Origin: Lycium barbarum
Lineage: Eukaryota; Streptophyta; Magnoliopsida; Solanales; Solanaceae
Reading direction: 5' to 3'
Length of the DNA stretch: 64,000 nt
Assembly: GCF_019175385.1 (NCBI RefSeq)
Contig: NC_083343.1
Span: 50,862,457-50,926,456, forward strand
Below the pieces are notes generated by a model that saw only the letters and a program-made list of their open reading frames with translations, did no database searches and was not told the origin of the DNA. The position numbers and the translations under genes were made by a program. Positions 4,496 to 47,798 of this stretch are shown piece after piece; the stretch's first letter is position 1, and every line of letters starts with the position of its first letter.

Positions 4496-4837
4496 GTCTT
4501 TTATTGGAATTTCATATATGTGTGTATTTACTGTAGGTTATTGCTTAATAGCAGTGAGCGGAAACCCTAAAGGTACCAATAACAAAAGTATTTATATGTA
4601 ACTACGATCAAGGTGTCTTCGCCACCATTGGAAATCTTGAAATTTGGGATGAAAGGTAGTCGTACATGCAGATTGAATGTGATTATTGAGGATCTCAAAG
4701 GCCAAATTTGCATTTGCTTAGTCGGAAGCGTAAGAGATCCCTTTTAATCTGGAGGGAGATGCATTACGAGAATTTATTGGAATCCGTTAGAACTTCAACT
4801 TGTTCTAGGTCAGGCGATAAAGGTCACGCAGTAGAGT

Positions 4838-4943
4838 GGATGCGATCGTACCAGCACTAGCACACCAGATCCCATTAGCACTCCAAGGTTAAGCGTGTTG
4901 GGGTGAGAGTGATACTAGGATGGGTGACCCCCCTGGGAAGTGT
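4838..4943 (+). pseudogene. 5S rRNA-like segment in family B
   Basis: About 106 nt align in order with the first ~105 nt of plant 5S rRNA: the GGATGCGATC start (one change), ACCAGCACTA, the GGATCCCAT region, TTAAGCGTG (box A area) and ACTAGGATGGGTGACC (box C area). The last ~15 nt of 5S are absent, so it cannot form the full terminal stem and is not a functional rRNA gene. Cassandra elements carry 5S sequence in their LTRs; here it sits in the internal region and no Cassandra-type LTR is visible. A second copy is at 45170-45275. Confidence 0.85.
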
Positions 4944-7900
4944 ACTAAGAGTCTTACAAATGCAGACATAAGAGACAGATGAGAAGCTAGAGTAACCTAA
5001 GGGAAATTAGAGAATGCGGAATGGTTGGAAACCCTAAAAGATCGCGAAGGATGCGGTAGACTAGACCGGCAAAGAGAAAGAAGGTGTTAGAATTAGGATA
5101 AGTTCGAATAGTTTTTGAAAATACTTTGTAAGCGAGGCGTTTATAAATATATATATATGTATGTGTATGACCTCCCATATGTGGCTGCGCCAACCGATAT
5201 GTGTGTCCCAGCAACCGACATTGCTATATACCGAAGGCATTAATCTAACAGGGTAATGAAGTTGAAGTGACAAAAGTGGTACAAATGTTACAAGGTAAGT
5301 TGATGTTATTCTCACTACAGGTTAGAGTTGGAAAGTCCTAATGCTACAACATCTGGGAAAGAAATAAAGTGAATATATAGGAAGTAGAAGATTAGAATTT
5401 CTAGAGCAAATGAAAAGGTATAAGGAACAAAAGATGAATGTGTGGGGTCAGAGAACAGACTTCGATAAGTGAGACTAAAGGATAGTAAACACAAATAAAG
5501 ATGTGAAGTAAGAGAGAGAATGATCAGGCCTTGCAATGATACTAAGAGATTTCTAGCTCTCGAGAGGTATATAAAGCGATAGATGTGTAGTCATACTGAC
5601 ATGATTTTCTCGTAAATGAAGAAGCTTTCCTAAAAGATGATTTAAGAATAGAACGGATTTGCATATTTAAAGGAATATTTCACGAACTTCAGGGTCGATA
5701 CTATAAAATAACAAGTGGAGAAGGGCGCTCGGGGAGGAAAGAACTTAAGCAAGGTTTGAGAATTAAAGTAGGAAAGGTACACTAATGGGCTGTTCAAAAG
5801 GAGAGGAGAGAAGAAAAAGGAAAGAAACGAAAAATTGAGCAATCACCAAGGACAAGCGAGAGGATAATGAACTAACAAAGCTGACCGGAAGGTAGTACAT
5901 CAATGACATGGGATAAGGATAAGGAATACCGTGATTCGATTATAAAGGAAATAGAAGGATGTATTGGAAATATTAATGAATATGGACTAGCCTTGGCAGC
6001 AGGAAGGAGAAGAAAGAAGAGAGTATATTTGCAAAGATTTCATGACTCAAACAAGAAGTGGCAGAACACTGGAAGAACTACAACGCATAGGTGGGATGCA
6101 AATAAGTAGTCAAGGAAAATTTAGGATAAGTGAGCTAAGTGAATAATAGGATTGATAGTGGAAGTGGAAGAGTGTAGCATATTAACTCTCAATGATATAT
6201 TGTAGACGTAAAGTGAAACCGGAAACTCAGAGTAAGAAGAACTTCAGTGATAATAGTCGTGGAGAAAGATGAGGGGTAAAAACAGAAAAGTGTGACCAAA
6301 CGCTCCGTAGAATGTTTAGAATGATTCCAATGTCCCCATTAACCCGTTGATTTGGGAAATGTTCAGTCACAAAAGTTAGAAGTAGAAGGGACTTAAAAAA
6401 AAGGCAGCAAGAATGGATATGTAATGCATAAGCGCTTCATTTAAATGCAAAGCCCTCGATTAGCAGAAAGGAAAAATAAGTCAAGCTATACGATGAAAGA
6501 ATTCTGATATTATAAGAAACCAAAAGAGTTGGAGGATCGTTAGGGTAGGCTGACGACTACTGATACTCGGGAGTTACTAGTGCATAAGAACACCCTTAAA
6601 AAGGGGGGAAGAGCAGATCTAGTCCTGAAACGAGGTATAGCATTGTCAAAATTCCAAGGAAAGAAAGATGTTAGCTTAAAGAGGCCAAAATTCTGGATGT
6701 AGTGGCATATCAAGAATGCATTAAGAGGAAGCAGAAATGAATTAAAGATAAGCATACTACAAAGCAGGTATGAAAAGGAATTAAAATGGATCAAGCGAAT
6801 ACTTCATGCGGTTGTGAGATATGATATTTCTAGACTAGGAAATTTGTGTCGCACCTAAATAGGTAGCGACGTATCCTAAAGAGAAATAAAAAGAGTAAGA
6901 AAGGTCTGCAAGCTAACTATAAAGAGAATGACAAAAGGGATGATGAGTACAAAGGACACTTTGGGTTATAACGGGAGAAAATCTTAATATTAAACGAAAA
7001 ATATGAGAATCTTAACAAAAGGAGTAACGATAAGCGGTGTGGCGATCTCTAAAGAGAGGAAGAACGATGTGGGTGCAGATAGAAAGGAAGCAGTATCACC
7101 AGAAATTAGAAAGTATATCACGAGTCACTAACCATATTGAGTATAAGGGTATGTATTATAGAGTGATATGAACCATCAGCGTAAGGTTATGCCTCGTAGA
7201 TGGGAATGGACGCACCAGAAAGCCAACAAGGAATGACAGCTAACTAAGTGGTCACTGGAATAAGGAAGTCAAGGGTAAGTATACCATACTGATATTAGAA
7301 AAGAAGTTGTGGTAAAGTGAGAATTGCCTTAAATTTATAATTATAAGTTATACTGCAAGATTTGAGGCAAAGGAATTAAAGGGAGAGTTTTGACAAGAAC
7401 TCGAAGATATTGTGAGCTATAGACCAGTTCGAACTATGATTATTAGTTCACTGCAATATATAATCCTACTACGGGGAATAATAAAGATGGTGATGGAATA
7501 TTAGGAGCCGTTAAGAAATCGTATTGAGGATATGGTTATAACTAATCATGGAAAGGAATTAAGACAGATGGTTGAAGAAAAGTAATAGTTAAGAGTAAGG
7601 ATTTGTCAGTAGCAGAGTAACGCTGAACAAGCAACTGGACGTTAGTATTTACGATGAATTAGAGAGCTTGGCCGATGAATTACGAGGGGATAATCTAGCA
7701 CATATCTAAGCTCAACAAGTACAAGTAGGGATAGCCAAGATAGTATCGGAGGAGTCAACAAAAGAAAGTGTTGTATTCGAGCAATGGAGTTATCCGTTAA
7801 TAAATAAATGAGGAAGAACAAAGAGGAAGGACGCTCGCAGGACGTCGAGTAGCCATGGCGTGGCCAGTTAAACCACTGGAATGGAGAAAGAATGAGAACA

Positions 7901-8069
7901 AAATACTAGTTGACTTGTGATTGTATATATAAGGATTGAGGACTGTACGACTCACAAATGAATTTGATAAAGAGCTATGAAGAACAAGACGAAACTGACC
8001 AAATTTTAGTATAAGTATACGGTAATCGAAAAACAAAATCAATGAGGCTATTGAGGATCGGCGCACTAC
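4944..8069 (+). other. Non-coding part of family B internal region
   Basis: Purine-rich on the plus strand, with many stops in every frame and no recognised protein motif. Short frames at 5903-6109 and on the minus strand look incidental. From 6114 it is duplicated almost unchanged at 35958-37913. Confidence 0.6.
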
Positions 8070-8105
8070 AACATTAGAGGACGAATGTTTTTAAAGGGGG
8101 AAGAA
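8070..8105 (+). promoter_or_regulatory. Family B pre-LTR hairpin and polypurine tract
   Basis: AACATT and AATGTT (8070-8075, 8084-8089) form a short inverted repeat, followed by the purine tract AAAGGGGGAAGAA and the LTR start at 8106. This arrangement marks the LTR as the 3' LTR of the sequence on its left. Confidence 0.75.
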
Positions 8106-8986
8106 TGTTACACCCCGTATCATCGAAGAAGCACTTATGAAATTTGAAATATAAGTACGTTGAGTTATGGTTAAGTAAAACCACTTTGGAATATAAGTAG
8201 CAAGCATTATTAAGTATATTTAATGAGTGAGGGATGTATATAAGGTATACCGGAAGGTTTTATAAGAAAATGAGTGGAAGAAATGGAGTAGTACAACTTT
8301 GGAGATAGGATAGGTAAAATTTCGTGTGAAAATTTTGATCCAACTTGAGGGAAGAATCTCTTAGCATATGAAGTGTTTTGAAGTGAAAAAAAAGCCTAAA
8401 ATGAAGTTCGTCGAGTCTAGTTTCCAACGCAACAAACGGATCATCAATAGGCCATCGGAGTAGAGAATTATGGACGTTACAATTTTGGCTGACAAATTTG
8501 GAGTAGAGACCCCGACCCAAATTTGGACCTTATAAAAGGGGCTAAGCCTCTTTTTTTTCAACAAAAAATCATATTGGGAGCTCAGAACCCTAAAGGGAAA
8601 CTTCGTCATTAAAAAAGTGAGGGTTTGAGTGATTTTCAAGTGGGGAAGCGTTAATCAAGCCCATATAACGCATGGTTGTGATTCTAGAATTGTTTTGCGG
8701 TGGATTTTAGCTTGGATTCAAGGTAGAATCTTGAAGATATTATCGTTTGGATAAGAAAATTGTATGAATCTTTCTCTTTTGGTATTATTTAAGGCTTATT
8801 TACGAAGATAAAGTCGTTAAATAATTATATAGTAAGTTGGTTAGTTATGGAAGTTGGAAAATAGCATGTGGGCTGTTTTATGGCCCATGTTGGTGTTGAA
8901 AGTGATGTTGTTAATGTTGGTATTGATGTTGTTCTCGTTGGTTGCTGAATTATGATTTTGGGCTAGGCATATAAACAGAGGAGATG

Positions 8987-9004
8987 CTGCCGAAATTTCG
9001 GCAG
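8987..9004. repeat. 18-bp perfect palindrome in B LTR
   Basis: CTGCCGAAATTTCGGCAG equals its own reverse complement. Related cores (GCTGCC then AAATTT-like) occur in the A, D and F LTRs. Confidence 0.7.
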
Positions 9005-9768
9005 ATTCTAGAAAGATTTATTTGGAGGCTTAGGATAAGTATAAAACAATGGACCTAATTATAGCATGAATGGTCTTATATGTAGATTGCGAGACCAAAA
9101 ATAGGTGGAAGAGCCGAGACGTGAATTTTCAGGTATGTTAAGGCTCGTCCCTTTCTTTCAAAGGCATGATTCCTATGTTATGATTCCATAAGTGTTTCTA
9201 TAACCTCCTTGTTTCTAAAAGTTAGAAGTTCATGATTCAAGGGCATGACTCATTTTCTGATAATCCATAAATGCTTTCCAAAATGTCTGTATTTTCCAAA
9301 CCAGAGATTTATGATTCTGTAAGCTCTTATGCCAAAACGATAGACATGTTTTTACACTGATAATGATGATGTCAAAGATGAGAATATTTCTATGATGATC
9401 ATGATGACGATGATTTCATGTTTAAGAATCCCAAGCTTATAAGTTCAATGTGAATATGAGAATGTTGAGCTAGTTCTTGATTTTCTCCAGTTTATTCATT
9501 GATGATGACCCTATTTCTAAAGGCTCCAAAGTGTGTGAATTATCGCTTTATGAGATTTATGATCTTATTCTATATTTTCCCTTGACATTATTCTTCATTG
9601 GTAGTCTCACCTCATAATGCTAGTTCCTCCAAGGTGAGACATGATGATCATGATGTTCCATAATACATTCGGAGGCTACCGACCTTACGTCACTCCGATA
9701 GTGTTATAACTTTTGATTGGACTCTCATGCATGCTTTATGTATTTGTATATGTATGATTACACAGTGC

Positions 9769-9945
9769 CTATACGGCCGGGCAGCACCACTATGGTGGGC
9801 GTAGTAGGCGGCTATGGATAAGGATAATAACATCGTGCCTAGACGGCCGGGCAGCACCACTACAATGGGCGTAGTGGGCGGCTGTGGATAATGATAGTAA
9901 CACCGTGTCTATATGGCACTGCCAGCACCACTAGTGAGCAGCATG
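9769..9945 (+). repeat. Minisatellite in B LTR
   Basis: About three units of ~68 bp, each with GTGCCTA-ACGGCCGGGCAGCACCACTA and GGGCGTAGT-GGCGGCT-TGGATAA. The third unit is degraded. Duplicated at 39613-39789. Confidence 0.75.
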
Positions 9946-10134
9946 AGATAATTACCCCGGACGCGGGCTAATGATGTTATTTGATTCAGACAGTTTATGT
10001 ATATGTGTGTAATATGTTTAAAAGGTAAAGGTGAGCATGCATGATTCCGCCTGAAGAGGCAAGCAGTTACAGTTATACTTCTTTCTTATGTCTTCGATAC
10101 TTGTTTATTATGTTATCATATATGCCTTACATAC

Positions 10135-10155
10135 TCAGTACTCTGTTCGTACCGA
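10135..10155 (+). other. Conserved LTR hairpin, B copy
   Basis: TCAGTAC and GTACCGA around a 7-nt loop, with one G-T pair replacing the usual A-T. It is followed by the shared GGGCGCTGCGTTCATGCCC block. Confidence 0.65.
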
Positions 10156-10443
10156 CGTCCCTTCTTGTGGGCGCTGCGTTCATGCCCGCAAGTTCAGATA
10201 GCCAGTCGAGTGAGCCAGACCAGTAGGACCTCTTTCCAGTTCTAGCCAGCAAGCTCCATTTGGACCGGAGCTCTAGCCCTTTGGTATGCCTTTTTTCATG
10301 TACATATATAGGTATGGCAGGGCCTTTTCCCGTCCTCGTTGTAGTCTATATTCCATAGAGGTCTGTAGACATTGTATATATATAGTGGGGGTCGTCATGT
10401 GATTTCAGTTGTCTCTTAATTTTGTGAACAGTATATACGGTGA

Positions 10444-10448
10444 CCAAG
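10444..10448. repeat. Target-site duplication of element A (left)
   Basis: CCAAG here is repeated at 21480-21484. The uninterrupted sequence with a single CCAAG is at 40288-40292. Confidence 0.95.
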
Positions 10449-13374
10449 TGTTATATCCCGTGTTTTCGTATAATTGGAAATCGAGAAATAAGTACGACTT
10501 GTGTGTTATAAGGACATAATTTGATTTTTGAGAATATGACTATGTTGGTTATGGAATTATTAATGTCAAGACCTCGGGGAAGGCCGAGGGTAAATTTGGA
10601 ATTTCGGAAATTAGTCTCGGGAATTACAAATCGGGATTTTAATGAATTGGGCCAAGAAGTTGAACAACAAAAATTGAGGCCCAAAGAGATGGGGTGGCCG
10701 GCCACAAGGCTTGGCCCAAGCCCCATTTTAAGTGGTCATGTGATTATCACATGACCCTTAATTGAGATATATATCCATTTGCCTTAGAACTTTCAAGAGG
10801 ATTGAATCAAAACACAAAGAAAATAAGAAAGCACCTCAACAACACCTCTCGGCCGAAGCTAGAGAAAGAGAGAAAGAAAATTTTCTAGCCCTTGTGTTTG
10901 ATCCAAAAATCTTGTTCTTCTCATATTTAAGAAGTACTCAAGACGCTCTCCGACGTGGTATAATTGGTTTGGCACAAGGATTCCGTTTGCGACAAGTCGG
11001 AAAATTAGTAAAAGGTAAGAATCTTGCCCCTCTAATGTTATAGAATTGCTAGGAATGTGTTAAGGATTGGAAGTAGGCGAGAATCCCGTAATTTTGATAT
11101 AAATAGAAAGTCGTGGGTGTGTGTGTATAGTGTGTATTGGCCGTGAGCCATAGAGAGGAAATTGATGTGAATTGATCTTGGTTAAGTTGGTATAATGTGT
11201 TGTTGTGACCTTTATGTCGTAAAAGATTAATTGATAAATGGAATTGGCGTTGAAAAGTGATTTTGGATATTATCGGAAAGTGTATACCCTTGGTATCATT
11301 ATGTATATCATTGTATATTTAGGGTGCTAGAGACTTTAGATATGAACTTATAATGATGTTAATGAATTCGGAATGAAACGACGTGAGTTAGAATGTTCGT
11401 AGTGCGTTTTAGATGTTTTGAAGAATTTGAGAAAATAATGGATTTTATGCAATTTCGTGTATGGCATGGTTTGTAATTCGAATGGGATTATATAAGTTTG
11501 AATGTGGGAATGCATACAATTATGTGGATATAGAATTGGAGTTGTGAAGGTTTGAATGAAAAGTTGTCAACTTATGAAATCATGTAAAACTTTGAAACTA
11601 GAATGGTGTTATTGTTGTTTGTTTTGGTTATTGATATGTGGGCTGTTGTAGTGGATAAAATAGGAGCCGAGCTATGCCTCGGGGATGTTAGATTTTTAGG
11701 GGAAGTGCTGCCGAAATTTCGGTAGGCAATTATGAAGTTAAAGGCATTTATAAACCTAAGGATCTCATTTGGTAACTTTGACCATTTGCAGATTTTTGAC
11801 GAGACGGGACGGAACTTTTGGAGGAGCTTACGACATCTGAGAGGTATGTAAAGCTTCCCAATTCTTTATTAGGCATATCTTAGGGTGTTAGTTGAATATG
11901 TGACCTTCCGGAGCATTTCTGCTCCTCGAAACCCGATCCACAGAAAAGTTACTATTCATTCAATTCTATTGAAGCTTAAAGGCTCCAATTTGGCTAGAAT
12001 GCCACTATTCGTCCGAAACCTATCGAAATGTGGTCGGGTAACCTAGGAATGATAATGTATGACCTTTGGCATATAAATGCTCGTAGAAACACGTTCGCCA
12101 CCTCACTTCGACTCGAGGTGGGCCCGCTACCCCAAAATGCCCGATTTGCCCTTCGGGCCACCTTTGATAATAAATTTGTACATATTACTTCGGATCTTTG
12201 GAACATCCTCCTACGGGGTAGGTTTGGGCAATTCGATACGCTAACCTATGTTTTGAATTATATGGACCATTTTGGAAACGTTTTGCGAAATGAAACTTTA
12301 TGTCGACTAAGTATTCGACTATTTTGTAATATGATATCATTTATGAATTTACTTTGTTTTGAAACACTATTTTGAAAGACGATTTGCATTTGTGTGCTCA
12401 CGACTCCGTTCGTGCCTTATTATGACTTCGTTCGCCGGTTCCCGGGCCGGTTTTGATTCGTGCGCCTTATGATAATTCGGCAGTATGCTGTGTTACGGTT
12501 CCCAAGGCTTCGCCATAGGGCCGGGTTCCGTTTGGAGTTATGCTGTGATATGGCTCGGGATGCGATACGCTCACCGATGATTTTGATTATGTTCAGGGAT
12601 GTACGGAGATTTGAAACCTTCTGGTGTTATGCTGTGTGTGGCGCCAGCGTCGGAGTGGCGACCACGTTCTTAAGCGCTTGCATGATTTTTACTTGCATAC
12701 TATATATGTATATGATTTCGATGCAGACTTTGACATACCAGTTTGTACCCCACTTTGACATCTGATTTGCTTTCGATTTTGATTCATATTTCTGTATTCC
12801 GTGCTTTACATACTCAGTACATATTCCGTACTGACCCCCTCTCTCCGGGGGCTGCGTTTTATGCCCGCAGGTGCAGATCTTGGTGATCCTCCGCAGTAGG
12901 CTCCTCTTTCTGCTTTCTCGGAGTACTCTCATTCGATTCGGAGTCCACTCTTGGTACAGACTCCTCTACTCTGTATATATTTTGGATATTTGACAGTTTG
13001 GGTACGGCGGGGCCCTGTCTCGCCATATGTTATGATTTGAATTCGTAGAGGCCTGTAGTCATCTTTGTGGGGTGAGGGTCCTATGTGTCCTATGTGTATG
13101 ATTTTGCTTTCGGGTCTTAAAGCGGTCTGTTTGATATGATGGCCCCAAATGGCCCTTTTGTATATATTTGTATTTTGACCGGCGATGCCTATTCCGCCGT
13201 TTTGTTTGAGTTTGATTTGACATGACCGCTTAAGACATATTTTCGTTATAAATTATATTTGACATAACTTTTGTAAAACTATGAAATCAGTTTGGATTGG
13301 GAAACGAATATGCGATTTTGGTCTGGGTACCCAGGTAGGGTGCCAGTCGCGGCCCACGGGGCTGGGTCGTGACA
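10449..13374 (+). mobile_element. Element A 5' LTR
   Basis: Starts TGTTATATCCCG and ends GGGTCGTGACA, 2926 bp. It should supply the promoter, transcript start and polyadenylation signal; I could not place the TATA box or R boundaries with confidence. Frames such as 12028-12375 lie wholly within the LTR and show no known domain. Confidence 0.95.
12814..12834 (+). other. Conserved LTR hairpin, A copy
   Basis: Perfect 7-bp inverted repeat TCAGTAC and GTACTGA around a 7-nt loop, repeated at 20919-20939 in the 3' LTR. It is followed by the shared GGGGCTGCGTTTTATGCCC block ending GCAGGT. Confidence 0.75.
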
Positions 13375-13378
13375 AAAG

Positions 13379-13390
13379 TGGTATCAGAGC
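13379..13390 (+). promoter_or_regulatory. Element A primer-binding site
   Basis: TGGTATCAGAGC lies four bases after the LTR end. It is complementary to the 3' end of plant initiator-Met tRNA, the usual primer of this group. Confidence 0.95.
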
Positions 13391-13430: not shown

Positions 13431-13472
13431 TCTTGTTTATCGATGTGTTGTGCACCACATCTATAAACGGGA
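13431..13472 (+). other. Palindromic-loop leader hairpin (DIS-like), A
   Basis: Two 17-nt arms (13431-13447 and 13456-13472) pair at 16 of 17 positions, counting G-U pairs, around the 8-nt loop TTGTGCAC, whose last six bases are self-complementary. It begins ~40 nt after the primer site. The same design is seen in B, C and D with different loop palindromes. Confidence 0.8.
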
Positions 13473-13577
13473 AGCTACAGGGCATTTAGGATGTTACTTT
13501 CTTTGTAATCTTAGATCGTGCGATAGAGCTGAGCTATTAGGATAATTTTGATCTGACTCGCCTTCGTGTTTGCAGTG

Positions 13578-16500
13578 ATGCCTCCGAAGAAGGCAACGGC
13601 AGCCCAGAAGGGCAAGGCGAGGATTGGGGAGACTAGCCAGGCACAGCGAGCTACCCGGGCTCGTGTATATGATTTGCCTGAGGATGTGCCACAGTCTGAG
13701 GGGTCTGCTACACCCCCACTAGTACGGCCTGGAGCAGGACCTTCAGCAGCTCCAGAGGTCCGTATACCCGCACCTGAGACTCCAGCTCCTCAGCCAGGGG
13801 CGGAGGATCGGACCCTGAGAGAGGCTGTACAGCTGTTGACTACACTGGTAGCAGGACAGGCTCGCAGGCGCGGGCGGAGGGACGACGATGATGATGACAG
13901 GCGGGACAGCCTGAGAGTTCGAGAGTTTTTGCTATGTGGCCCTCCAGAGTTCTTCGGGTCTAAGCCCGACGAGGACCCCCACGACTTCATTCGGGGGATG
14001 CGACGCTCACTGGACTTGGTCAGGGCTTCAGAGACCGAGTCGGTTGAGCTGGCTTCGCACCGGCTTCGAGATGTGGCTACCCACTGGTACGAGACTTGGG
14101 AGTTGTCTAGGGGAGAGGGTGCCCCTCCAGCCACTTGGGATCAGTTTGTGACAGCATTCACCCGCCACTTTTTGCCACCAGAGTTACGGCGGGCACGGGC
14201 TGATCGATTCTTACGTCTGCAGCAGAGGGGTCGGAGTGTTCGCGAGTATAACCTTGAGTTTGATTCTCTGGCCCGATATGCACCGGCCGTGGTAGCAGAT
14301 ATGTCCGATCGGATGCACAGATATGTTATGGGATTGGACCGGTATTTGGTCGATAGTTGTATGGCAGTGTCATTGCAGGCAGACATGGACATTTCCCGGC
14401 TTCAGGCCTATGCGATGGGTATGGAGGACCGTCGCAGGTCTGATCCTGCTGGCAGAGATCGAGACAGGAGGCCGCCCAAGAGGGCTAGATCCGCGGGTTA
14501 TTCAGGGGATTCTCGAGGCGGACAGCCTCAGCAGCAGCAGCAATCTGACAGATATTTTCCTCCTTCCGGCCGGGGTACTCAGTCAGGTAGCCGAAGATTC
14601 GATAGTACAGGACCGTCTGGGGCCGGTCAGAGCTCCAGAGTGGCAGGTTCACAGGTACCCAGGGGTCCCAGCCAGGCCAGACCACCCAGGCCCCGTTGTC
14701 CTCATTGCGGAAAGTCTCATCCCGGGGAGTGTTACCGAGCGACTGGAGCTTGCTTTTCGTGTGGTGGTCAGGGCCACTTTATGAGAGATTGTCCATTGGC
14801 TAGCGGTTCTGGTAGTGCTGCTCAGCAGACAGGGTCAGCCGCCGGTTCTTCTTCTGCTCCATCAGTTGCACGCCCTGGAGGGCGAGGTATTCCAGCACCG
14901 GCAGGACGCGGTCGAGGCCGCGGTGGCGCTTCAGGTTCTAGCGGTCCCTCGAACCGCATATATGCTTTGGCCAGCCGCCAGGATCAGGAGGCTTCGCCAA
15001 ACGTTGTCACAGGTACATTACTGGTTTTCTCCAGATCTGTATATGCATTGATTGACCCTGGCTCTACTTTATCATATATTTCCCCGCTCGTTGCTAGTAA
15101 GATTGGGATAGTGTCTGAGCCTATAGAGCCATTTGAGGTAGCTACGCCAGTTGGGGATTTTATTGTAGCGAGACAGATCTATAGGGATTGTTCTGTAACC
15201 ATTTATGACCGTAGCACTAAGGCTGATTTGGTAGAGTTAGACATGCTCGAGTTTGATGTCATTATGGGTATGGACTGGTTGTCTTCCTGTTATGCTAATG
15301 TCGACTGCCAGAAAAAGGTAGTCCGTTTTCAGTTTCCCGGGGAACCAGTCATAGAGTGGTTCGGATCTACAGCATCGCCGAGGGGTAAGTTTATTTCATA
15401 CCTCAAGGCTAAGAAGATGATCCAGAAGGGTTATATCTATCATTTGGTTCGTGTGCACGATACTGCCGCGGAGGTACCTACCCTTCAGTCTGTCCCGGTC
15501 GTCAGTGAGTTTCCAGATGTTTTTCCTGATGAGCTTCCTGGCCTTCCGCCTGAGCGGGAGATTGATTTTTCTATAGAGTTGATGCCGGATACGCAGCCTA
15601 TATCTATTCCCCCGTACAGGATGGCACCGGCTGAGTTGAAAGAGTTGAAGGAGCAGCTGAAAGATTTGCTGGATAAGGGTTTTATCAGGCCCAGCACATC
15701 ACCCTGGGGAGCGCCGGTATTGTTTGTCAGAAAGAAGGATGGGTCGTTGCGGATGTGTATTGACTACCGGCAGCTGAATAAGGTGACTATTAAGAATAAA
15801 TATCCCCTTCCCCGGATTGATGACTTGTTTGATCAGCTGCAGGGTGCTAGACACTTCTCCAAGATAGATCTGCGCTCAGGCTATCATCAGGTGCGAGTAC
15901 GGGAGTCTGATATCCCGAAGACTGCTTTCAGGACCCGGTACGGGCATTATGAGTTCAGAGTTATGTCGTTCGGGCTGACTAATGCTCCAGCGGTGTTTAT
16001 GGATCTGATGAACCGGGTATTTCGGCCATTCCTGGACATGTTTGTTATTGTGTTTATTGATGATATCCTGATTTACTCGCGATCAGCCGAGGAGCATTCA
16101 GATCATTTGAGGACGGTACTTGGCATTCTCCGTCAGCAGAAGTTATATGCTAAATTCTCTAAGTGTGAGTTCTGGTTGACTTCTGTGGCATTCTTGGGCC
16201 ATATTGTCGGCGCAGATGGTATTCGGGTTGACATGCAGAAGATTGAGGCTGTGCAGAATTGGCCCAGGCCTACTACACCGACAGAGGTGCGTAGTTTTCT
16301 TGGATTGGCTGGGTACTACCGCAGGTTCGTGGAGGATTTCTCTTCTATTTCAGCACCACTGACGAAGCTTACCCAGAAAGCAGCAAAATTCCAGTGGACA
16401 GATGCTTGCGAGCGCAGCTTTCAGATGCTGAAGGAGAGATTGATTACAGCACCCGTTTTGGCTCTTCCAGAGGGATCTGACGGGTATGTTGTCTATTGTG

Positions 16501-18443
16501 ACGCCTCTGGTATTGGGATAGGATGTGTATTGATGCAGCACGGTCGAGTCATAGCCTATGCTTCCCGGCAGCTTAGACCGCACGAGAAGAACTATCCCAC
16601 TCATGATCTTGAGTTGGCCGCGGTGATTCATGCCTTGAAGATTTGGCGGCATTATTTATATGGGGTCCATGTTGATATCTATACGGACCATAAGAGTCTC
16701 CAGTATATTTTTAGGCAGAAGGAACTAAATTTGCGGCAGCGGAGATGGCTTGAGTTACTAAAGGATTACGACGTTGATATTTTGTACCATCCGGGGAAAG
16801 CCAATGTGGTAGCTGATGCGCTTAGCCGCAAGTCCGTGGGCAGTCTGGCTGATGTTCCATCTGATAAGAGAGATTTGGTTCGTGATATTCATCAGCTGGC
16901 CAGCCTCGGAGTTCGTTTGGTGGATTCTGGAGATTCTGGGATTTCTGTTCGTCCAGTTGCTGAGTCATCTATTATTCAGGAGGTAAAGCAGCGCCAGTTT
17001 GAGGATCCTCTTTTGATTCAGTACAGAGATGTGGCCCTTAGTAGATCAAAGACTCAGTTTGAGATCTCGCCTGACGGAGTATTATTATATGACGGCAGAT
17101 TCTGTGTACCGGATGTTGCGGGCTTACGGCGGCAGATTATGGGCGAGGCCCATAATGCACGGTATTCTGTTCATCCTGGTTCCACTAAAATGTATCGGGA
17201 CCTCAGGTGTTTGTATTGGTGGGACGGCATGAAGAATGATATTGCTGAGTTTGTTAGTCAGTGCCCGAACTGCCAGCAAGTTAAGATCGAGCACCAGAAG
17301 CCCGGTGGATTATTGCAGGAGATGGAAATTCCAGCCTGGAAATGGGAGATGATTAATATGGATTTTGTTGTTGGACTACCGCGCACTCCACGCAGGTACG
17401 ACTCTATCTGGGTTGTTGTTGACAGGCTAACGAAATCAGCCCATTTCCTTCCGGTTCGGACTACTTATTCGGCGGAGGACTATGCCAGATTGTACATCAG
17501 AGAGATAGTCAGACTTCACGGAGTCCCGATATCTATTATTACTGACCGAGGTACCCAGTTTACAGCAAATTTCTGGAGGTCATTTCAGGAGGGATTAGGG
17601 ACTCAGGTGAGTCTCAGTACAGCTTTTCACCCTCAGTCCGACGGGCAGGCCGAGCGCACTATTCAGACGCTCGAAGATATGTTGCGGGCCTGCGTTATTG
17701 ATTTCAGGGGCAGCTGGGATGATCATTTGCCGCTTATTGAGTTTGCCTATAATAACAGTTATCACTCCAGCATTCAGATGGCTCCGTACGAGGCCCTTTA
17801 CGGCAGGAGATGCAGGTCTCCTATTGGCTGGTTTGACGTGGGCGAGACTAAGTTGATTGGGCCAGATGTGATCCAGGAGGCTGTAGATAAGGTAAAGCTT
17901 ATTCGAGAACGATTATTGGCTGCTCAGAGTCGACAGAAAGCTTATGCAGACAGACGACGTCGACCGTTAGAGTTCCGGATTGGCGACTGGGTATTTCTGA
18001 AGGTGTCGCCCATGAAGGGTGTCATGAGATTCGGTAAAAAGGGTAAGTTGAGCCCCCGGTACATTGGACCGTATCAGATCGTGCGAAAGATAGGCGAGGT
18101 CGCCTATGAGCTAGACTTACCATCCGACTTGGAGGCCGTACACCCGGTGTTTCATGTGTCTATGTTGCGGAAATGTATTGGTGATCCTGCCCGGATATTC
18201 CCAGTAGATGACATTCAGGTGACGGAGCAGTTATCTTATGACGAGCAGCCTATATCTATTCTGGATCGGCAGGTGCGGAGGCTACGCACTAAAGAAGTGC
18301 CCTCCGTCAAAGTTCTGTGGCGCAACAATAATCGGGAGGAGATGACTTGGGAGGCGGAGGACGAGATGAAGAAGAAATATCCCCACCTGTTTCCGACATC
18401 CACAGGTAATCTAATTTCTTTTTCAGTTTGTTGTGTTGATTGA
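13578..18443 (+). CDS. Gag-pol polyprotein of element A, intact
   Basis: Single frame of 1621 codons; I chose ATG 13578 ([10 protein letters not shown]) because the frame four codons upstream opens with GTG. In order: gag; a zinc-finger-like [12 protein letters not shown] then a CCHC knuckle [14 protein letters not shown] (~392-405); aspartic protease with IDPGST (Asp ~493, Pro in place of the usual Ser/Thr); reverse transcriptase with FIDD (~828); RNase H starting at YCDASG (~975); integrase zinc finger (H~1192, C~1229, C~1232) and core Asp1262, Asp1323, Glu1359, a D(60)D(35)E spacing; chromodomain from ~1562 ([13 protein letters not shown] to YPHLF). The products would form particles, copy the RNA and integrate it, with the chromodomain biasing target choice toward chromatin marks. 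No stop or frameshift is present, unlike every other coding copy here. Gag and pol share one frame, so no frameshift is required. Confidence 0.97.
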
Positions 18444-18553: not shown

Positions 18554-21479
18554 TGTTATATCCCGTGTTTTCGTATAATTGGAAATCGAGAAATAAGTAC
18601 GACTTGTGTGTTATAAGGACATAATTTGATTTTTGAGAATATGACTATGTTGGTTATGGAATTATTAATGTCAAGACCTCGGGGAAGGCCGAGGGTAAAT
18701 TTGGAATTTCGGAAATTAGTCTCGGGAATTACAAATCGGGATTTTAATGAATTGGGCCAAGAAGTTGAACAACAAAAATTGAGGCCCAAAGAGATGGGGT
18801 GGCCGGCCACAAGGCTTGGCCCAAGCCCCATTTTAAGTGGTCATGTGATTATCACATGACCCTTAATTGAGATATATATCCATTTGCCTTAGAACTTTCA
18901 AGAGGATTGAATCAAAACACAAAGAAAATAAGAAAGCACCTCAACAACACCTCTCGGCCGAAGCTAGAGAAAGAGAGAAAGAAAATTTTCTAGCCCTTGT
19001 GTTTGATCCAAAAATCTTGTTCTTCTCATATTTAAGAAGTACTCAAGACGCTCTCCGACGTGGTATAATTGGTTTGGCACAAGGATTCCGTTTGCGACAA
19101 GTCGGAAAATTAGTAAAAGGTAAGAATCTTGCCCCTCTAATGTTATAGAATTGCTAGGAATGTGTTAAGGATTGGAAGTAGGCGAGAATCCCGTAATTTT
19201 GATATAAATAGAAAGTCGTGGGTGTGTGTGTATAGTGTGTATTGGCCGTGAGCCATAGAGAGGAAATTGATGTGAATTGATCTTGGTTAAGTTGGTATAA
19301 TGTGTTGTTGTGACCTTTATGTCGTAAAAGATTAATTGATAAATGGAATTGGCGTTGAAAAGTGATTTTGGATATTATCGGAAAGTGTATACCCTTGGTA
19401 TCATTATGTATATCATTGTATATTTAGGGTGCTAGAGACTTTAGATATGAACTTATAATGATGTTAATGAATTCGGAATGAAACGACGTGAGTTAGAATG
19501 TTCGTAGTGCGTTTTAGATGTTTTGAAGAATTTGGGAAAATAATGGATTTTATGCAATTTCGTGTATGGCATGGTTTGTAATTAGAATGGGATTATATAA
19601 GTTTGAATGTGGGAATGCATACAATTATGTGGATATAGAATTGGAGTTGTGAAGGTTTGAATGAAAAGTTGTCAACTTATGAAATCATGTAAAACTTTGA
19701 AACTAGAATGGTGTTATTGTTGTTTGTTTTGGTTGTTGATATGTGGGCTGTTGTAGTGGATAAAATAGGAGCCGAGCTATGCCTCGGGGATGTTAGATTT
19801 TTAGGGGAAGTGCTGCCGAAATTTCGGTAGGCAATTATGAAGTTAAAGGCATTTATAAACCTAAGGATCTCATTTGGTAACTTTGACCATTTGCAGATTT
19901 TTGACGAGACGGGACGGAACTTTTGGAGGAGCTTACGACATCTGAGAGGTATGTAAAGCTTCCCAATTCTTTATTAGGCATATCTTAGGGTGTTAGTTGA
20001 ATATGTGACCTTCCGGAGCATTTCTGCTCCTCGAAACCCGATCCACAGAAAAGTTACTATTCATTCAATTCTATTGAAGCTTAAAGGCTCCAATTTGGCT
20101 AGAATGCCACTATTCGTCCGAAACCTATCGAAATGTGGTCGGGTAACCTAGGAATGATAATGTATGACCTTTGGCATATAAATGCTCGTAGAAACACGTT
20201 CGCCACCTCACTTCGACTCGAGGTGGGCCCGCTACCCCAAAATGCCCGATTTGCCCTTCGGGCCACCTTTGATAATAAATTTGTACATATTACTTCGGAT
20301 CTTTGGAACATCCTCCTACGGGGTAGGTTTGGGCAATTCGATACGCTAACCTATGTTTTGAATTATATGGACCATTTTGGAAACGTTTTGCGAAATGAAA
20401 CTTTATGTCGACTAAGTATTCGACTATTTTGTAATATGATATCATTTATGAATTTACTTTGTTTTGAAACACTATTTTGAAAGACGATTTGCATTTGTGT
20501 GCTCACGACTCCGTTCGTGCCTTATTATGACTTCGTTCGCCGGTTCCCGGGCCGGTTTTGATTCGTGCGCCTTATGATAATTCGGCAGTATGCTGTGTTA
20601 CGGTTCCCAAGGCTTCGCCATAGGGCCGGGTTCCGTTTGGAGTTATGCTGTGATATGGCTCGGGATGCGATACGCTCACCGATGATTTTGATTATGTTCA
20701 GGGATGTACGGAGATTTGAAACCTTCTGGTGTTATGCTGTGTGTGGCGCCAGCGTCGGAGTGGCGACCACGTTCTTAAGCGCTTGCATGATTTTTACTTG
20801 CATACTATATATGTATATGATTTCGATGCAGACTTTGACATACCAGTTTGTACCCCACTTTGACATCTGATTTGCTTTCGATTTTGATTCATATTTCTGT
20901 ATTCCGTGCTTTACATACTCAGTACATATTCCGTACTGACCCCCTCTCTCCGGGGGCTGCGTTTTATGCCCGCAGGTGCAGATCTTGGTGATCCTCCGCA
21001 GTAGGCTCCTCTTTCTGCTTTCTCGGAGTACTCTCATTCGATTCGGAGTCCACTCTTGGTACAGACTCCTCTACTCTGTATATATTTTGGATATTTGACA
21101 GTTTGGGTACGGCGGGGCCCTGTCTCGCCATATGTTATGATTTGAATTCGTAGAGGCCTGTAGTCATCTTTGTGGGGTGAGGGTCCTATGTGTCCTATGT
21201 GTATGATTTTGCTTTCGGGTCTTAAAGCGGTCTGTTTGATATGATGGCCCCAAATGGCCCTTTTGTATATATTTGTATTTTGACCGGCGATGCCTATTCC
21301 GCCGTTTTGTTTGAGTTTGATTTGACATGACCGCTTAAGACATATTTTCGTTATAAATTATATTTGACATAACTTTTGTAAAACTATGAAATCAGTTTGG
21401 ATTGGGAAACGAATATGCGATTTTGGTCTGGGTACCCAGGTAGGGTGCCAGTCGCGGCCCACGGGGCTGGGTCGTGACA
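18554..21479 (+). mobile_element. Element A 3' LTR
   Basis: 2926 bp, the same length as the 5' LTR at a constant offset of 8105. Only three substitutions were seen by eye. It is followed by the CCAAG duplication at 21480-21484. Confidence 0.95.
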
Positions 21480-21773
21480 CCAAGTTGGTCTGCGTTGTCA
21501 TCCTCTGCTAGTATGCTTACATATACATATCCATATGCGTGTTTCGTGGAATTCTGAGATAAGATCTAGCGTATAAATGCTATCGCGAATGGTACTAGTG
21601 GAATATCAGTCAAAGTGGGCCACCAAGTTGTTTAGTACGGAGTGGGAGTGAGGTTAGGGGTGCTCGATCAGTAGTGGTCGGGTGCTCGTCACGGCTCATC
21701 GGTTTGGGTTGTGACAAAATTGGTATCAGAGTAGTTCATCCTAGGGATTGTCTACAGACCGCATCCGGTAGAG

Positions 21774-21815
21774 TCCTGTTTATGGGTGTGAAGCCGGCCA
21801 CACTTATAAACAGGA
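21774..21815 (+). other. Palindromic-loop leader hairpin (DIS-like), B
   Basis: Two 17-nt arms pair at all 17 positions (two G-U pairs). The loop is AAGCCGGC, so the self-complementary GCCGGC is preceded by two A's, as in the HIV-1 dimerization loop. Identical in the duplicate at 40582-40623. Confidence 0.85.
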
Positions 21816-21931
21816 GGCTGCAGTGCATTTAGGAATCATTGACCTATCTTTCTATCTTAAATCGTGCGATAGAGCTAGAGTCTAGGAAAGATCGCTTCTG
21901 ACCCTTTTTCCTGTAGGTAAGTGGAGACTAA

Positions 21932-22345
21932 GAAAAGACAAAGAGATCAACCTCAAACAGTGAGGGTGCTAAGAAGGCCCCTAGAATACATTCAGGACCA
22001 CAAGCTCCGCGTCGAGTAAGAAGGAGCCCCAGCTATTCCATTGAGACCGATCCCTCTGAGGACCCAGCGACGACGCCTCTAGAGTTTCTAATTTCCATAG
22101 AAGAGGATCCGTCGAAGGATAGTTATGACACAGACCCGTTTGAGGGTTCGTATAGGACACCGGAGGAGGAGATTCCCAAGGCCGTACCAGCTGTTCCCAT
22201 GGGAGAGCACTACGTCAGACCAGCTACTCCAGTGAGTGTTACTGATTACTCTAGCCCTCTATCCTGGCCGTTAGTAAACCAGGAGCAGCCGGATTATCCG
22301 TATCCATCTGATTCAGATGGGGGAGATGACGAAGGCCAAACTAGT
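21932..22345 (+). pseudogene. Family B leader reading frame, N-terminal part
   Basis: An open frame of ~138 codons begins after a TAA at 21929 and runs into the C insertion. It has no early ATG; the first in frame is 22199 (MGEHYVRPATPV). The product would have a basic start (KTKRS, APRRVRRS), then an acidic Pro/Ser/Asp-rich body (DPSEDPATT, DTDPFEGSYRTPEEE). The upstream GTG GAG ACT AAG in another frame may be a mutated ATG start plus a frameshift. It lies where gag begins in A and D, but I see no gag homology. Confidence 0.45.
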
Positions 22346-23725: not shown

Positions 23726-23767
23726 AGTTCAGTCCTAGGAAGTGTCTACAAGCCGTGTCTAGTAGAG

Positions 23768-23808
23768 TCTTGTTTATGGTGTGTTGCGCGCCACATCAAT
23801 AAACAAGG
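23768..23808 (+). other. Palindromic-loop leader hairpin (DIS-like), D
   Basis: A ~16-bp stem with one bulged A encloses the loop TTGCGCGC. GCGCGC (23786-23791) is self-complementary. Other D copies lie at 31678, 34628 and 47666. Confidence 0.8.
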
Positions 23809-23913
23809 GACTACAGGGCATTTAGGAAAAATGACCATCTTTCCTCTATGAGATCGTGCGATAGAGCCGTGTATAAGATTTTATCCTCCCTAATAGTGTG
23901 TTGTGATTTCAGA

Positions 23914-31635: not shown

Positions 31636-31677
31636 AGTTCAGTCCTAGGAAGTGTCTACGAGCCGTGTCTTGTAGAG

Positions 31678-31718
31678 TCTTGTTCATGGTGTGTTGCGCG
31701 CCACATCAATAAACAAGG
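31678..31718 (+). other. Palindromic-loop leader hairpin, D copy 2
   Basis: Same hairpin as at 23768 with loop palindrome GCGCGC at 31696-31701. One stem base changed (TTTAT to TTCAT), weakening one pair. Confidence 0.75.
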
Positions 31719-31757
31719 GACTACAGGGCATTTAGGAAAAATGACCATCTTTCCTCT

Positions 31758-33115
31758 ATGAGATCGTGCGATAGAGCCGTGTATAAGATTTTATCCTCCC
31801 TAATAGTGTGTTGTGATTTCAGAATCCCACCAAAGGGAAAAGCTACAACCGCCCAGAAAGGAAAGACTACGGCAAAGAGGGGGGTAGAAAGAGAGCCTCC
31901 GATGTATGTAGAAAAGGGCGAGTCACATAATGAGGCCCTATCTAATATTTCCTCCACCCCGCCTGATGTGGAAGAACAAGGAGGAGCTCCAGCTCCAATT
32001 CCTCCCCCGGTTGCTTCGGGTCAACAAGTGACCGAGGCTATCCACTTATTGACACAACTAGTTGCCACCCAAGCACAGCTACAGGGTTCGGGTTCAAGTG
32101 ACAGGGTCGTTAGTACTAGAGCCCGCGATTTTATGACTTTAAATCCTCCGGAGTTCTTTGGGTCAAAGCCGGACGAAGACCCGCAAGGATTTATTGATGA
32201 GATGTTGAGGACGTTGAAAATTATCCATGCCTCCGAGACTGAATCTGTGGAGTTAGCATCTTACAGAATCCGGGACGTGGCAGTCTTATGGTATAATAAT
32301 TGGGTATTATCAAGAGGAGAGAATGCGCCTCCTCAGGTTTGGCAAGAATTTGTAGATGCCTTCATCCGCCACTACTTGCCACCCGAGGTCCGCCGAGCTA
32401 GAGCGGATAGGTTCTTCAATCTGAAACAAGAAAATATTAGTGCTCGGGAGTGTAGCCTTCAATTCAATTCATTGGCTAAGTATGCCACAGCTATGGTGTC
32501 CGATATGGGAGATAGAGTGCATAGGTTTGTGAGTGGCCAAGAGCCCCATTTGGTCAAAGATTGCTTAACGACTTCATTACAAGACGGGATGGATATCTCC
32601 AGCATTCAAGCCCATGCTCAAAATCTAGAAGAGCAACAACATCCGCAAAAGGGCGAGCGTGATATGGATCAAGGGCCAAGTAAGAGGGCCAGATCCATAG
32701 GTGCTGATAGCGACCATAGAAGGAGATCGAGGCAGACGTATTCTAGGCACACAGGTCAGTCGGTGACTAGTATACGTCCACGAGTTGCAGACTAGGGGTC
32801 TGACTTCTCTAGTCATCCCGGACCGAATCAGAGTTTCACCGAGTCGGGCTCTCGGTATAGGAGTGATTCAGGCCAGAGGAGAACATCGATACCATAATGT
32901 ACCTAGTGCGGTAAGCTACATTGGGGGCCATGCCGTTTGGGCTCGGATGTTTGTTATGTTTGCGGCCAGTCAGGTCACATTATTAGAGAGTGCCCGTTTC
33001 GAGGCAGTAGGGACGCGGTTCAGCCCGCAGGATAAGCGGCTGGTTCTTCTTCGGTGCGCCCGGGAGGGCAGACTTCCCCAGTTCCGGCAGGGCGAGGTAG
33101 AGGCAGAGGGGGAGC
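31758..33115 (+). pseudogene. Family D gag, second unit
   Basis: The least damaged D gag. The usual start MPPKGK is changed (ATG to ATC at 31824), but an in-frame ATG at 31758 lies in the conserved leader and the frame stays open to 32795. It includes [52 protein letters not shown] and MDQGPSKRARS. A stop (CAG to TAG) ends it before the zinc knuckle; CYVCGQSGHI is still readable downstream in frame. At 33115 gag is joined to the middle of a D LTR, sharing ACTTC at the junction. Confidence 0.85.
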
Positions 33116-34572: not shown

Positions 34573-34661
34573 TGGTATCAGAGCATTTCAGTCCTACGAA
34601 GTGTCTACGAGCCGTGTCTAGTAGAGTCTTGTTTATGGTGTGTTGCGCGCTACATCAATAA
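34573..34661 (+). promoter_or_regulatory. Family D primer site and shortened leader hairpin
   Basis: TGGTATCAGAGC at 34573-34584 is followed by the leader. The hairpin at 34628-34661 keeps the loop palindrome GCGCGC (34645-34650) but its 3' arm is cut after AATAAA by a deletion that also removes the conserved GGGCATTTAGGA stretch. Confidence 0.75.
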
Positions 34662-34744
34662 ATGACCATCTTTCCTCTATGAGATCGTGCGATAGAGCCG
34701 TGTATAAGATTTTATCCTCCCTAATAGTGTGTTGTGATTTCAGA

Positions 34745-40524: not shown

Positions 40525-41153
40525 AAATTGGTATCAGAGTAGTTCATCCTAGGGATTGTCTACAGACCGCATCCGGTAGAGTCCTGTTTATGGGTGTGAA
40601 GCCGGCCACACTTATAAACAGGAGGCTGCAGTGCATTTAGGAATCATTGACCTATCTTTCTATCTTAAATCGTGCGATAGAGCTAGAGTCTAGGAAAGAT
40701 CGCTTCTGACCCTTTTTCCTGTAGGTAAGTGGAGACTAAGAAAAGACAAAGAGATCAACCTCAAACAGTGAGGGTGCTAAGAAGGCCCCTAGAATACATT
40801 CAGGACCACAAGCTCCGCGTCGAGTAAGAAGGAGCCCCAGCTATTCCATTGAGACCGATCCCTCTGAGGACCCAGCGACGACGCCTCTAGAGTTTCTAAT
40901 TTCCATAGAAGAGGATCCGTCGAAGGATAGTTATGACACAGACCCGTTTGAGGGTTCGTATAGGACACCGGAGGAGGAGATTCCCAAGGCCGTACCAGCT
41001 GTTCCCATGGGAGAGCACTACGTCAGACCAGCTACTCCAGTGAGTGTTACTGATTACTCTAGCCCTCTATCCTGGCCGTTAGTAAACCAGGAGCAGTCGG
41101 ATTATCCGTATCCATCTGATTCAGATGGGGGAGATGACGAAGGCCAAACTAGT
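40525..41153 (+). mobile_element. Family B internal start with primer site and leader (copy 2)
   Basis: Primer site TGGTATCAGAGT at 40529-40540; perfect leader hairpin 40582-40623 with loop AAGCCGGC; leader reading frame from 40740. Family C interrupts it at 41154, and family B resumes at 44741. Confidence 0.9.
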
Positions 41154-43247: not shown

Positions 43248-43294
43248 GGAGTTTTCCTTGTGCAGTCTGATCACCTGCATAACTGAGAAACTCC
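43248..43294 (+). other. Palindromic-loop leader hairpin (DIS-like), C
   Basis: The upper stem pairs TTGTGCAG with CTGCATAA; a lower stem pairs GGAGTTTT with GAGAACTCC-like sequence across an internal loop. The 9-nt loop TCTGATCAC centres on self-complementary TGATCA (43268-43273). Confidence 0.65.
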
Positions 43295-43404: not shown

Positions 43405-44364
43405 ATGACTCTAACGCGATCCAAAAATGGTAAATGAGGACGTCCCGTGAAAGTTAACCGAAATCTTGGGGGCGCGAATGCTGGTAATGGAAATGATGTT
43501 GGAAATCAAGCACCACCTCCAGCATCGCCTGCTCCTGCTGTTCCTGTTGCGAGTGTACCTGAGATTGGTACTATGCAAACGACTATTCAAATGTTGACTG
43601 CATTGGTTGCTGCTCAGCAGCAGCGTGGAGGTGTGAGACCTCATGGTGGAGGCAGACTTAAGCAATTCCTCGACTTGAAGTCACCAGAGTTCTTTGGGTC
43701 ACGAGAGCTGGACAACCCCCAACACTTTTTAGATGAGACCTTCAAGGCATTGAGGGCAATGGATGCCCGGGATTCCGAAGCTGTAAGGCTTGCTTCTTAT
43801 CAGTTAAAGGATGTTGCTCACATGTGGTTTGAGATGTGGGAATCTGAGAGGGATGACGCTGCTTTAGCTCCGACATGGGCTGAATTTGAAGAGGCGTTCA
43901 TGGAAAGGTTCTTGTCTGATGAGGAAAGAATTGCTATGGCTACAAAGTTTGAAAAGCTAGAGCGGGGTAACAAGTCAGTTCGTGAGTATAGTTTGGAATT
44001 CACCCGTCTGTCAAAGTATGATTTATACATAATTCCGACTGAAAAGCATAAGTTGACTCGCTTTGTGAAAGGCTTGGTACCACGTATCAAGTCAGCATGT
44101 GCTGCTGTTTCTATGTCTCCTACTTGTACTTTCTCATCTTTGGTTGGGTTTGCTGAGCAACAAGAGAGTTGGAAAAATGAGGAGAGGGTGGATCGAGATG
44201 AGAACAAGAAGGCCCGTTCGGCGGGTGGTTTCAGTGGTAATAATTATAAGGGAGGGCAGAGTAAAGGGTATTCTGCACCTGCTCATTCTGGCGCTTATTC
44301 CTATGCTAGTGTGCCTTCTGGTAGGCAAGGCCAGAAAAATAACAATAATACAGACTCAAGCTAG
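43405..44364 (+). pseudogene. Family C gag, truncated
   Basis: Starts MTLTRSKNGK at ATG 43405; codon 11 is TGA, most simply a C to T change of an Arg CGA, and the frame then continues GRPVKVNRNLGG. The core is recognisable: FLDLKSPEFFGSRELDNPQHFLDETFKALRAMD, SYQLKDVAHMWFEMWE, FMERFLSDEERIAMATKFEKL, SVREYSLEFTRLSKY. It ends after GRQGQKNNNNTDSS, before any zinc knuckle, and runs into filler. Gag would coat element RNA; this copy is dead. Confidence 0.88.
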
Positions 44365-47611: not shown

Positions 47612-47706
47612 TGTTATCAGGGCAGTTCAGTCCTAGGAAGTGTCTACAAGCCGTGTCTAGTAGAGTCTTGTTTATGGTGTGTTGCGCGCCACATCAATAA
47701 ACAAGG
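47612..47706 (+). promoter_or_regulatory. Degenerate D primer site and leader hairpin (copy 2)
   Basis: Primer site TGTTATCAGGGC with the same two changes as copy 1. The hairpin 47666-47706 has its loop palindrome GCGCGC at 47684-47689. Just downstream a 13-bp deletion near 47750 removes TCGTGCGATAGAG, a leader motif otherwise conserved in A, B and D. Confidence 0.75.
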
Positions 47707-47798
47707 GACTACAGGGCATTTAGGAAAAATGACCATCTTTCCTCTATGAGACCGTGTATAAGATTTTATCCTCCCTAATAGTGTGTTGTGATTTCAGA

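Follow-up and report, generated by a model that had tools for sequence, protein, structure and literature searches.

A leader hairpin with varying palindromic loops in plant chromoviruses, probably an RNA dimerization site

Genome dimerization is a hallmark of retroviruses, and plant LTR retrotransposons make up a large share of plant genomes, but little was found in the literature on genome dimerization in these elements. Searches for chromoviruses with RNA dimers, or for dimerization palindromes of plant LTR retrotransposons, in a literature with few subscription journals, yielded nothing, and no chromovirus or plant leader palindrome was recognised in the titles and abstract beginnings of the matches listed. 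A 2025 review of plant LTR elements contains neither 'dimer' nor 'palindrom' (PMC12786077). The locus studied here raises the question directly: just past the primer site, four families of retroelements carry a hairpin whose loop presents a self-complementary hexamer, a different one in each family. Could this hairpin be a site at which two genomic RNAs dimerize? The window, that is, the whole stretch of DNA analyzed (64,000 nucleotides; C7:50862457-50926456), belongs to a genome of 1.67 Gb, assembled in 164 contigs, whose content is that of a plant.

When up to two mismatches are allowed, the tRNA-iMet primer site is matched 12 times in the window, and a homologous leader follows 8 of the 12. 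The elements concerned, in families A to D, comprise the following parts.

10449..13374, forward strand: 5′ LTR of element A, from self-comparison, 99.9% identical to the 3′ LTR at 18554-21479
13379..13390, forward strand: primer-binding site of A, TGGTATCAGAGC, from a pattern match, which we take to be of the tRNA-iMet type
13379 (A), 21721 and 40529 (B), 23714, 31624, 34573 and 47612 (D), 43181 (C): primer sites followed by the homologous leader
13566..18443, forward strand: single gag-pol reading frame of A, 1625 codons, with gag, zinc knuckle, RT, integrase and chromodomain pieces (Pfam, four pieces)
31758..32795, forward strand: gag-only reading frame of D copy 2, 345 codons (ORF and Pfam)
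43447..44364, forward strand: gag-only reading frame of C, 305 codons (ORF and Pfam)

Element A is young, as the near identity of its LTRs indicates, and combines gag, RT, integrase and a C-terminal chromodomain in one element, as expected of a chromovirus (Ty3 type); its Chromo match, at 25.4 bits, lies barely over the Pfam cut-off of 25.1. No pol of their own was found in C and D, whose frames of at least 200 codons are all gag and match gag models only in Pfam; their leaders are homologous to those of pol-bearing elements. A segmental duplication of 5.5 kb (99.8% identical) relates 6114-10449 plus 21479-22668 to 35958-41476; A was inserted later into one copy and is absent from the other, and a 7-base flank overlap at its insertion fits a short target duplication. 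A second duplication, of 8 kb (99.2% identical) and with D copies in it, relates 22679-30636 to 46577-54481, and at 30158-35958 D elements are apparently in tandem (LTR, inside, LTR, inside), the middle LTR being common to both. Sequences resembling 5S rRNA (4838-4957 and 45170-45287) lie within a repeat of about 857 bp (4403-5257 and 44735-45591, 94% identical), possibly a retroelement carrying 5S, the second copy of which starts at the end of a 161-bp repeat of the stretch preceding the C primer site. In an Rfam search of the window, 5S rRNA alone exceeded the curated threshold, and a search of the A leader returned three weak matches, each far under the gathering threshold.

The hairpins are located in the 5′ leader, between the primer site and gag, which is the position of a dimerization site.

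13431..13472, forward strand: hairpin of A; loop TTGTGCAC at 13448-13455, palindrome GTGCAC at 13450-13455; covariance model E=2.3e-18, with A itself in the training set
21774..21815, forward strand: hairpin of B, copy 1, 17 bp unbroken; loop AAGCCGGC at 21791-21798, palindrome GCCGGC at 21793-21798; covariance-model match
40582..40623, forward strand: hairpin of B, copy 2, a segmental duplicate; palindrome GCCGGC at 40601-40606; covariance-model match
23765..23813, forward strand: hairpin of D, copy 1; loop TTGCGCGC, palindrome GCGCGC at 23786-23791; covariance-model match
31675..31723, forward strand: hairpin of D, copy 2; palindrome GCGCGC at 31696-31701; covariance-model match
34624..34668, forward strand: hairpin of D, copy 3, with most of the 3′ arm deleted; palindrome GCGCGC at 34645-34650; found in the covariance-model search
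47663..47711, forward strand: hairpin of D, copy 4, a duplicate of copy 1; palindrome GCGCGC at 47684-47689; covariance-model match
43248..43294, forward strand: hairpin of C; loop TCTGATCAC at 43266-43274 (2+6+1 layout), palindrome TGATCA at 43268-43273; missed by the A-type covariance model

All eight hairpins and their loops were reported in an initial annotation of this DNA (those of D at 23768, 31678, 34628 and 47666) and were confirmed in place, as were the stem changes read off the alignment, namely A-U, G-C and G-U at the fifth pair and U-G, C-G and U-A at the fifteenth. The long hairpin ascribed to every D element stands in three copies; in the D element at 34573 (hairpin at 34628) the 3′ arm is mostly deleted. 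The same annotation held four palindromes in four families to be unlikely by chance, which is correct, but its rate of 1/64 was too low: the hexamer may sit in several registers, and the rate is nearer 4%: of 781 hairpins taken elsewhere in the window as controls (stem of at least 6, loop of 7-9), 32 contain such a hexamer palindrome. The chance of four out of four is then about 3e-6 if the families are independent, which they are not quite. Moreover, the eight hairpins do not amount to eight trials, for the B copies stem from one segmental duplication, the D copies at 23714 and 47612 from another, and the leaders of A, B and D are homologous; the window alone therefore cannot decide. A further conserved motif, ATCGTGCGATAGAGC, is found about 136 nt past the primer site (13515-13529 in A) in A, B and three of the four D copies, and is not conserved in C and in several other leader lineages; AUCGUGCGAU is complementary to itself, counting two U-G pairs at its center.

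The genome at large contains 53,725 exact primer sites, against 61 for the reversed pattern, and 31,933 sites with the chromovirus-type LTR end TGACA, against none when reversed. The first 100 of the 53,725 sites, all near the start of one chromosome, were fetched, and the best hairpin of each was chosen by a caller blind to the loop letters. A palindrome was present in 26 of the 33 leaders with a TGACA end, a set that includes one unrelated element (L089) and broken-arm copies, whereas the 115 nt that follow in these leaders gave 2 of 33; this settles what the window alone could not. Sites lacking the TGACA end gave 6 palindrome calls in 67 (2 of 67 in the next 115 nt), five of them from the same lineage with altered LTR ends and one (L079) unrelated; with these 6 of 67, a hairpin in every iMet-primed element is ruled out.

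With its position fixed by the stem, the hexamer is palindromic in 59 of 67 homologous leaders, and nine palindromes occur: GTGCAC (22), GCGCGC (17), TGATCA (6), GACGTC (5), TGGCCA (3), GGGCCC (2), GAGCTC (2), GGCGCC (1) and GCCGGC (1). The eight exceptions are GACACC, AGGCCC, AACGTC, ATGCAC, ACGCGC, GGCATC, GTGCGC and GTGTGC, of which the last two still self-pair through G-U. The 67 comprise six of the eight window leaders, duplicates being omitted, and 61 genome leaders: 32 of the 33 TGACA sites (without the unrelated L089), six others among the 100 fetched sites, whose homologous leaders were recognised by eye (L065, L104, L120, L126, L127 and L142), and, for the remainder, three plus 20 from the TGACA listing, 17 of these 20 chosen for rarer LTR ends. 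When leaders are clustered, 38 of 45 clusters are palindromic at 95% identity, 28 of 32 at 90% and 9 of 11 at 80%. The least biased series, the first 56 of the 31,933 TGACA sites, gives 49 of 56 at the fixed position (hand-compiled) and 44 of 56 with the loop-blind caller. In 19 leaders retrieved once rule and model had been fixed, the covariance model matches all 19, and the hexamer, its position read by eye, is palindromic in 15 (the misses being GTACAC, GTGAAC, ACGCAC and GCGCTC); the loop-blind caller also reaches 15, counting L257, with a shifted hexamer, and missing L273. A loop of about 7-9 nt with at least six self-complementary nucleotides is thus general in these leaders, mostly in a 2+6 layout, with 2+6+1 in the C type and 1+6 in one lineage. 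Nearly all the data derive from a single plant genome, and there from the opening stretch of one chromosome; within that scope, the observation holds up and proves much stronger than initially noted.

The loop and the stem also covary. Among 43 distinct hairpin cores, 35 have a palindrome, whereas 20,000 shuffles give a mean of 8.0 and a maximum of 17, so the comparison with shuffled loops proposed at the outset came out in favor of self-complementarity. An alignment was then made of 37 A-type hairpins, omitting seven C-type leaders, four truncated or broken ones (L048, L118, L188 and D copy 3) and near-duplicates at 93%. The pairs of the hexamer with itself are formed in 96.4% of cells against 69.2% in shuffles, and their covariation is 0.677 against 0.135 shuffled, with 0 of 500 shuffles as high; because kinship alone can make sequences beat shuffles, these statistics are to be taken with the slid controls, every one of which the hexamer exceeds. 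The second-fifth pair is formed in 37 of 37 hairpins and takes all four Watson-Crick types plus G-U (C-G 15, U-A 11, A-U 6, G-C 2, U-G 2, G-U 1). The outer pair is almost invariably G-C (34 of 37); three hairpins are unpaired there, no other standard pair occurs at this place in the alignment, and the number of palindrome pairs with two-sided change, two of three, is reached by 407 of 500 shuffles. In the case of the stem, 90.3% of the cells of its 17 bp are paired, with G-U pairs common, and its score of 0.360 (0.217 shuffled) is equaled in 0 of 500 shuffles and lies above all slides, so that the stem too covaries beyond its controls. Compensatory change accompanies this pairing: both partners vary in 12 of the 17 stem pairs, against 7.6 in shuffles, of which 2 in 500 reach as many, and the cells concerned number 47 against 14.4 shuffled. 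By a cruder count over the 43 cores, stem pairs 2, 3, 4 and 6 surpass all shuffles, pair 5 just equals their highest value, and pair 1 does not stand out from them (40 of 43 against a mean of 39.7). On the basis of the slid controls, we argue that kinship is not the whole reason for the covariation.

Self-complementarity, rather than sequence, is therefore what is constrained, as a homotypic RNA-RNA contact would need. A kissing-loop dimer formed between like RNAs at the leader hairpin is, in our judgement, quite probably the best explanation. The initial annotation had proposed a kissing-loop signal for RNA dimerization, and this is well supported: stem and self-complementarity persist through changes in the letters of the loop. 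In the Ty3-type chromoviruses studied here and in the related gag-only elements, a hairpin of up to 17 bp, about 50 nt past the primer site, would act as the dimerization initiation site; there, two like genomic RNAs would meet loop to loop through six base pairs, and the dimer would presumably then be matured and packaged by Gag. By analogy with retroviruses and yeast Ty elements, we infer that two genomic RNAs pair and that this leads to packaging. The RNA-RNA pairing would accordingly have to take place in cells and help packaging there, and a new palindrome would be predicted to alter the choice of partner. The hairpin is present in pol-bearing and in gag-only elements alike.

Template switching, a known mechanism for quasi-palindromes, could instead perfect an inverted repeat during reverse transcription or replication, in which case palindromes and stem would arise by mutation and have no function. 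Such a process would symmetrize stem and loop alike, but the loop nucleotides beside the hexamer vary unpaired (TT, AA, TA, GA, AT, TC and others), and the partners of stem pair 15-36 do not match in 16 of the 29 hairpins with letters on both sides, in contrast to the 96.4% pairing of the hexamer. Together with the frequent G-U pairs of the stem and the persistence of decayed hexamers in copies, this renders a purely mutational origin improbable. Leader hairpins also often bind Gag, and the structure might be a binding site for Gag or a host protein, the palindrome being incidental or serving a protein dimer able to read a two-fold symmetrical RNA. Protein recognition of this kind seems to us quite unlikely, given that nine hexamers at one position offer no single sequence to be read, while self-complementarity is kept.

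A palindrome is symmetrical in DNA as well, where it might be the site of a dimeric DNA-binding factor or form a cruciform. Arbitrary palindromes at one place are ill-suited to a sequence-specific factor, and the G-U forms also bear on the matter. GTGCGC and GCGCAC are reverse complements, both derived from GCGCGC through CpG decay, and of the two only GUGCGC self-pairs on RNA, with two G-U pairs. If only the duplex counted, the two should be equally frequent; the same-frame genome counts are 768 for GTGCGC and 527 for GCGCAC, a modest excess, counted without a strand-bias control, whose direction is as predicted for RNA pairing but whose size is small. We therefore rate a role as DNA as very improbable. 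The first 20 of the 768 GTGCGC copies are scattered (nearest-neighbor identity 0.67-1.0, ungapped, with one identical pair), as are the first 20 of the 527 GCGCAC copies (0.60-0.96, ungapped), so both forms are mainly decay products of GCGCGC copies. Amplified, functional GTGCGC lineages were also considered, but no clear burst was seen, these copies being as scattered as those with GCGCAC. When G-U pairs are counted, GTGCGC can pair along its full length with GTGCAC and likewise with GCGCGC, which makes it an easy evolutionary bridge between them.

The history of the palindromes was traced on a leader tree, a single tree from at most about 200 nt per leader with many poorly supported nodes (supports from 0 up), which requires a parsimony minimum of at least 20 hexamer changes. 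A history in which all ancestors are palindromic costs 20 as well, with 12 palindrome-to-palindrome changes, of which seven fall on internal branches, and eight losses confined to the tips; one parsimony run placed the non-palindromic AACGTC, the state of the truncated L118, at the root and backbone by an arbitrary tie. Palindromic ancestors with terminal losses are what is expected if self-complementary loops are those that spread. In the GGGCCC lineage (L109, L127, L129 and L077), GGGCCC and GCGCGC are both present, a palindrome switch, along with one decayed loop; GCGCGC reappears inside this lineage in L129. Chance, or a single inherited ancestral palindrome, can hardly be credited, since, although all leaders are homologous and many copies have the same hexamer, at least 20 changes on the tree, nine palindromes and covariation above shuffles and slides all speak against it.

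The hairpin need not occur in every related element. In viral contigs, the primer-site pattern turns up at 31 loci, and inspection showed no plant-like leader at any of them; an RT scan of these contigs found none. The RT scan of genome contigs gave six chromovirus-like loci (L032-L037) in bacterial assemblies, of which L032-L036 are apparently contamination from other plants; L037 matches less well (57% over 98 residues) and lies in a 1.16-Mb contig. A leader is present in three of the six, L032 and L033, which are one element in two assemblies, and L034. The palindromic hairpin is absent from these leaders, which have other hairpins without palindromes. The RT of L034 is 84% identical to that of A, and the RT tree, with local supports of 0.02 to 0.92, leaves its place among the palindromic elements unsettled. 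An element this close to A yet free of the hairpin indicates that related elements can do without it, and the device is thus a feature of a lineage, gained or lost.

Any two of the nine palindromes have at least one mismatch when cross-paired. The initial annotation had suggested that different palindromes keep families from being co-packaged, or let a family track its helper; the sequences are compatible with either suggestion, and go no further. RT was looked for 1.2-5.2 kb downstream of 20 leaders and matched in 11, one match spanning just 27 residues, where a miss may reflect a nested insertion or a deletion. Pol-bearing elements have GTGCAC (L155, L168, L149 and L154) or GCGCGC (L169, L160 and L164), and also GGCGCC, GGGCCC and GAGCTC; GCGCGC is also the hexamer of L256, a pol-bearing element that extends past the right edge of the window. 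The gag-only D shares GCGCGC with the pol-bearing L160, L169, L164 and L256 and not with A. Its leader is nearest by descent to that of one pol-bearing relative (L106, the same site as L160), and the sharing of the hexamer therefore needs no selection: a helper for D would fit these data but is unproven by the shared hexamer. Palindromes that strictly mark families were rejected, as GTGCAC and GCGCGC each occur on several branches. Tentatively, and with considerable doubt, the loop palindrome might be viewed as a fast-evolving self-recognition code that would divide the thousands of copies in one genome among separate packaging groups. G-U forms, GUGCGC for example, would be intermediates able to pair with the palindrome on either side, and gag-only parasites would be bound to the code of their pol-bearing helper. 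If so, a lineage with a new palindrome would pair mainly with itself. The 31,933 loci with LTR end and primer site constitute a natural mutation experiment, in which those sampled show nine palindromes plus decayed controls, and whether co-resident families keep apart, recombine or are parasitized by means of a loop code becomes testable.

Among yeast elements, Ty1 is of the Copia type. Like the elements described here, it is an LTR retrotransposon, and a kissing-loop dimer model has been put forward for it (PMC5454406). BARE1 and BARE2 of barley are, as here, plant LTR retrotransposons, BARE2 being packaged in BARE1 particles, but they differ in being of the Copia type; dimerization signals are mentioned in a paper on BARE, and 'palindrom' and 'kissing' are absent from its main text (PMC3735527). 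Yeast Ty3 is closer, a Ty3/gypsy element with a hairpin palindrome, PAL6 (CUGCAG), which forms the apical part of a short hairpin and whose deletion abolishes dimers in vitro; unlike the present case, it is one of six palindromes examined in a single element, and is listed in the GAG reading frame (PMC11381356). The palindrome described here belongs instead to the untranslated leader, and its covariation extends over many lineages.

The closest likeness is with SL1 of HIV-1, also a hairpin of the 5′ leader past the primer site, the loop of which presents a GC-rich hexamer complementary to itself. The SL1 loop has a 2+6+1 layout, with unpaired purines on both flanks of the hexamer. The loops described here differ in being mostly 2+6, with no unpaired 3′ base and with variable flanks, and in presenting nine palindromes in one genome; flanking purines on both sides, as in a narrow definition of SL1, are not kept (TT+6, AA+6, TC+6+C and others). 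We do not claim sequence homology between the leader hairpin and SL1. The GC-rich palindromes prevalent at the HIV-1 DIS are GCGCGC, GUGCAC and GUGCGC, which include the two commonest hexamers of the present set, and GUGCGC is found here too (PMC5874298). HIV-1 palindromes with more than one A-U pair replicate poorly, and the corresponding rule, GC-rich with at most one A-U pair, is obeyed by eight of our nine, TGATCA with its two A-U pairs being the exception (PMC5874298). The design is one already known from the HIV-1 DIS, and what appears new, within the literature searched, is its occurrence in chromoviruses, with an unusual number of natural variants.
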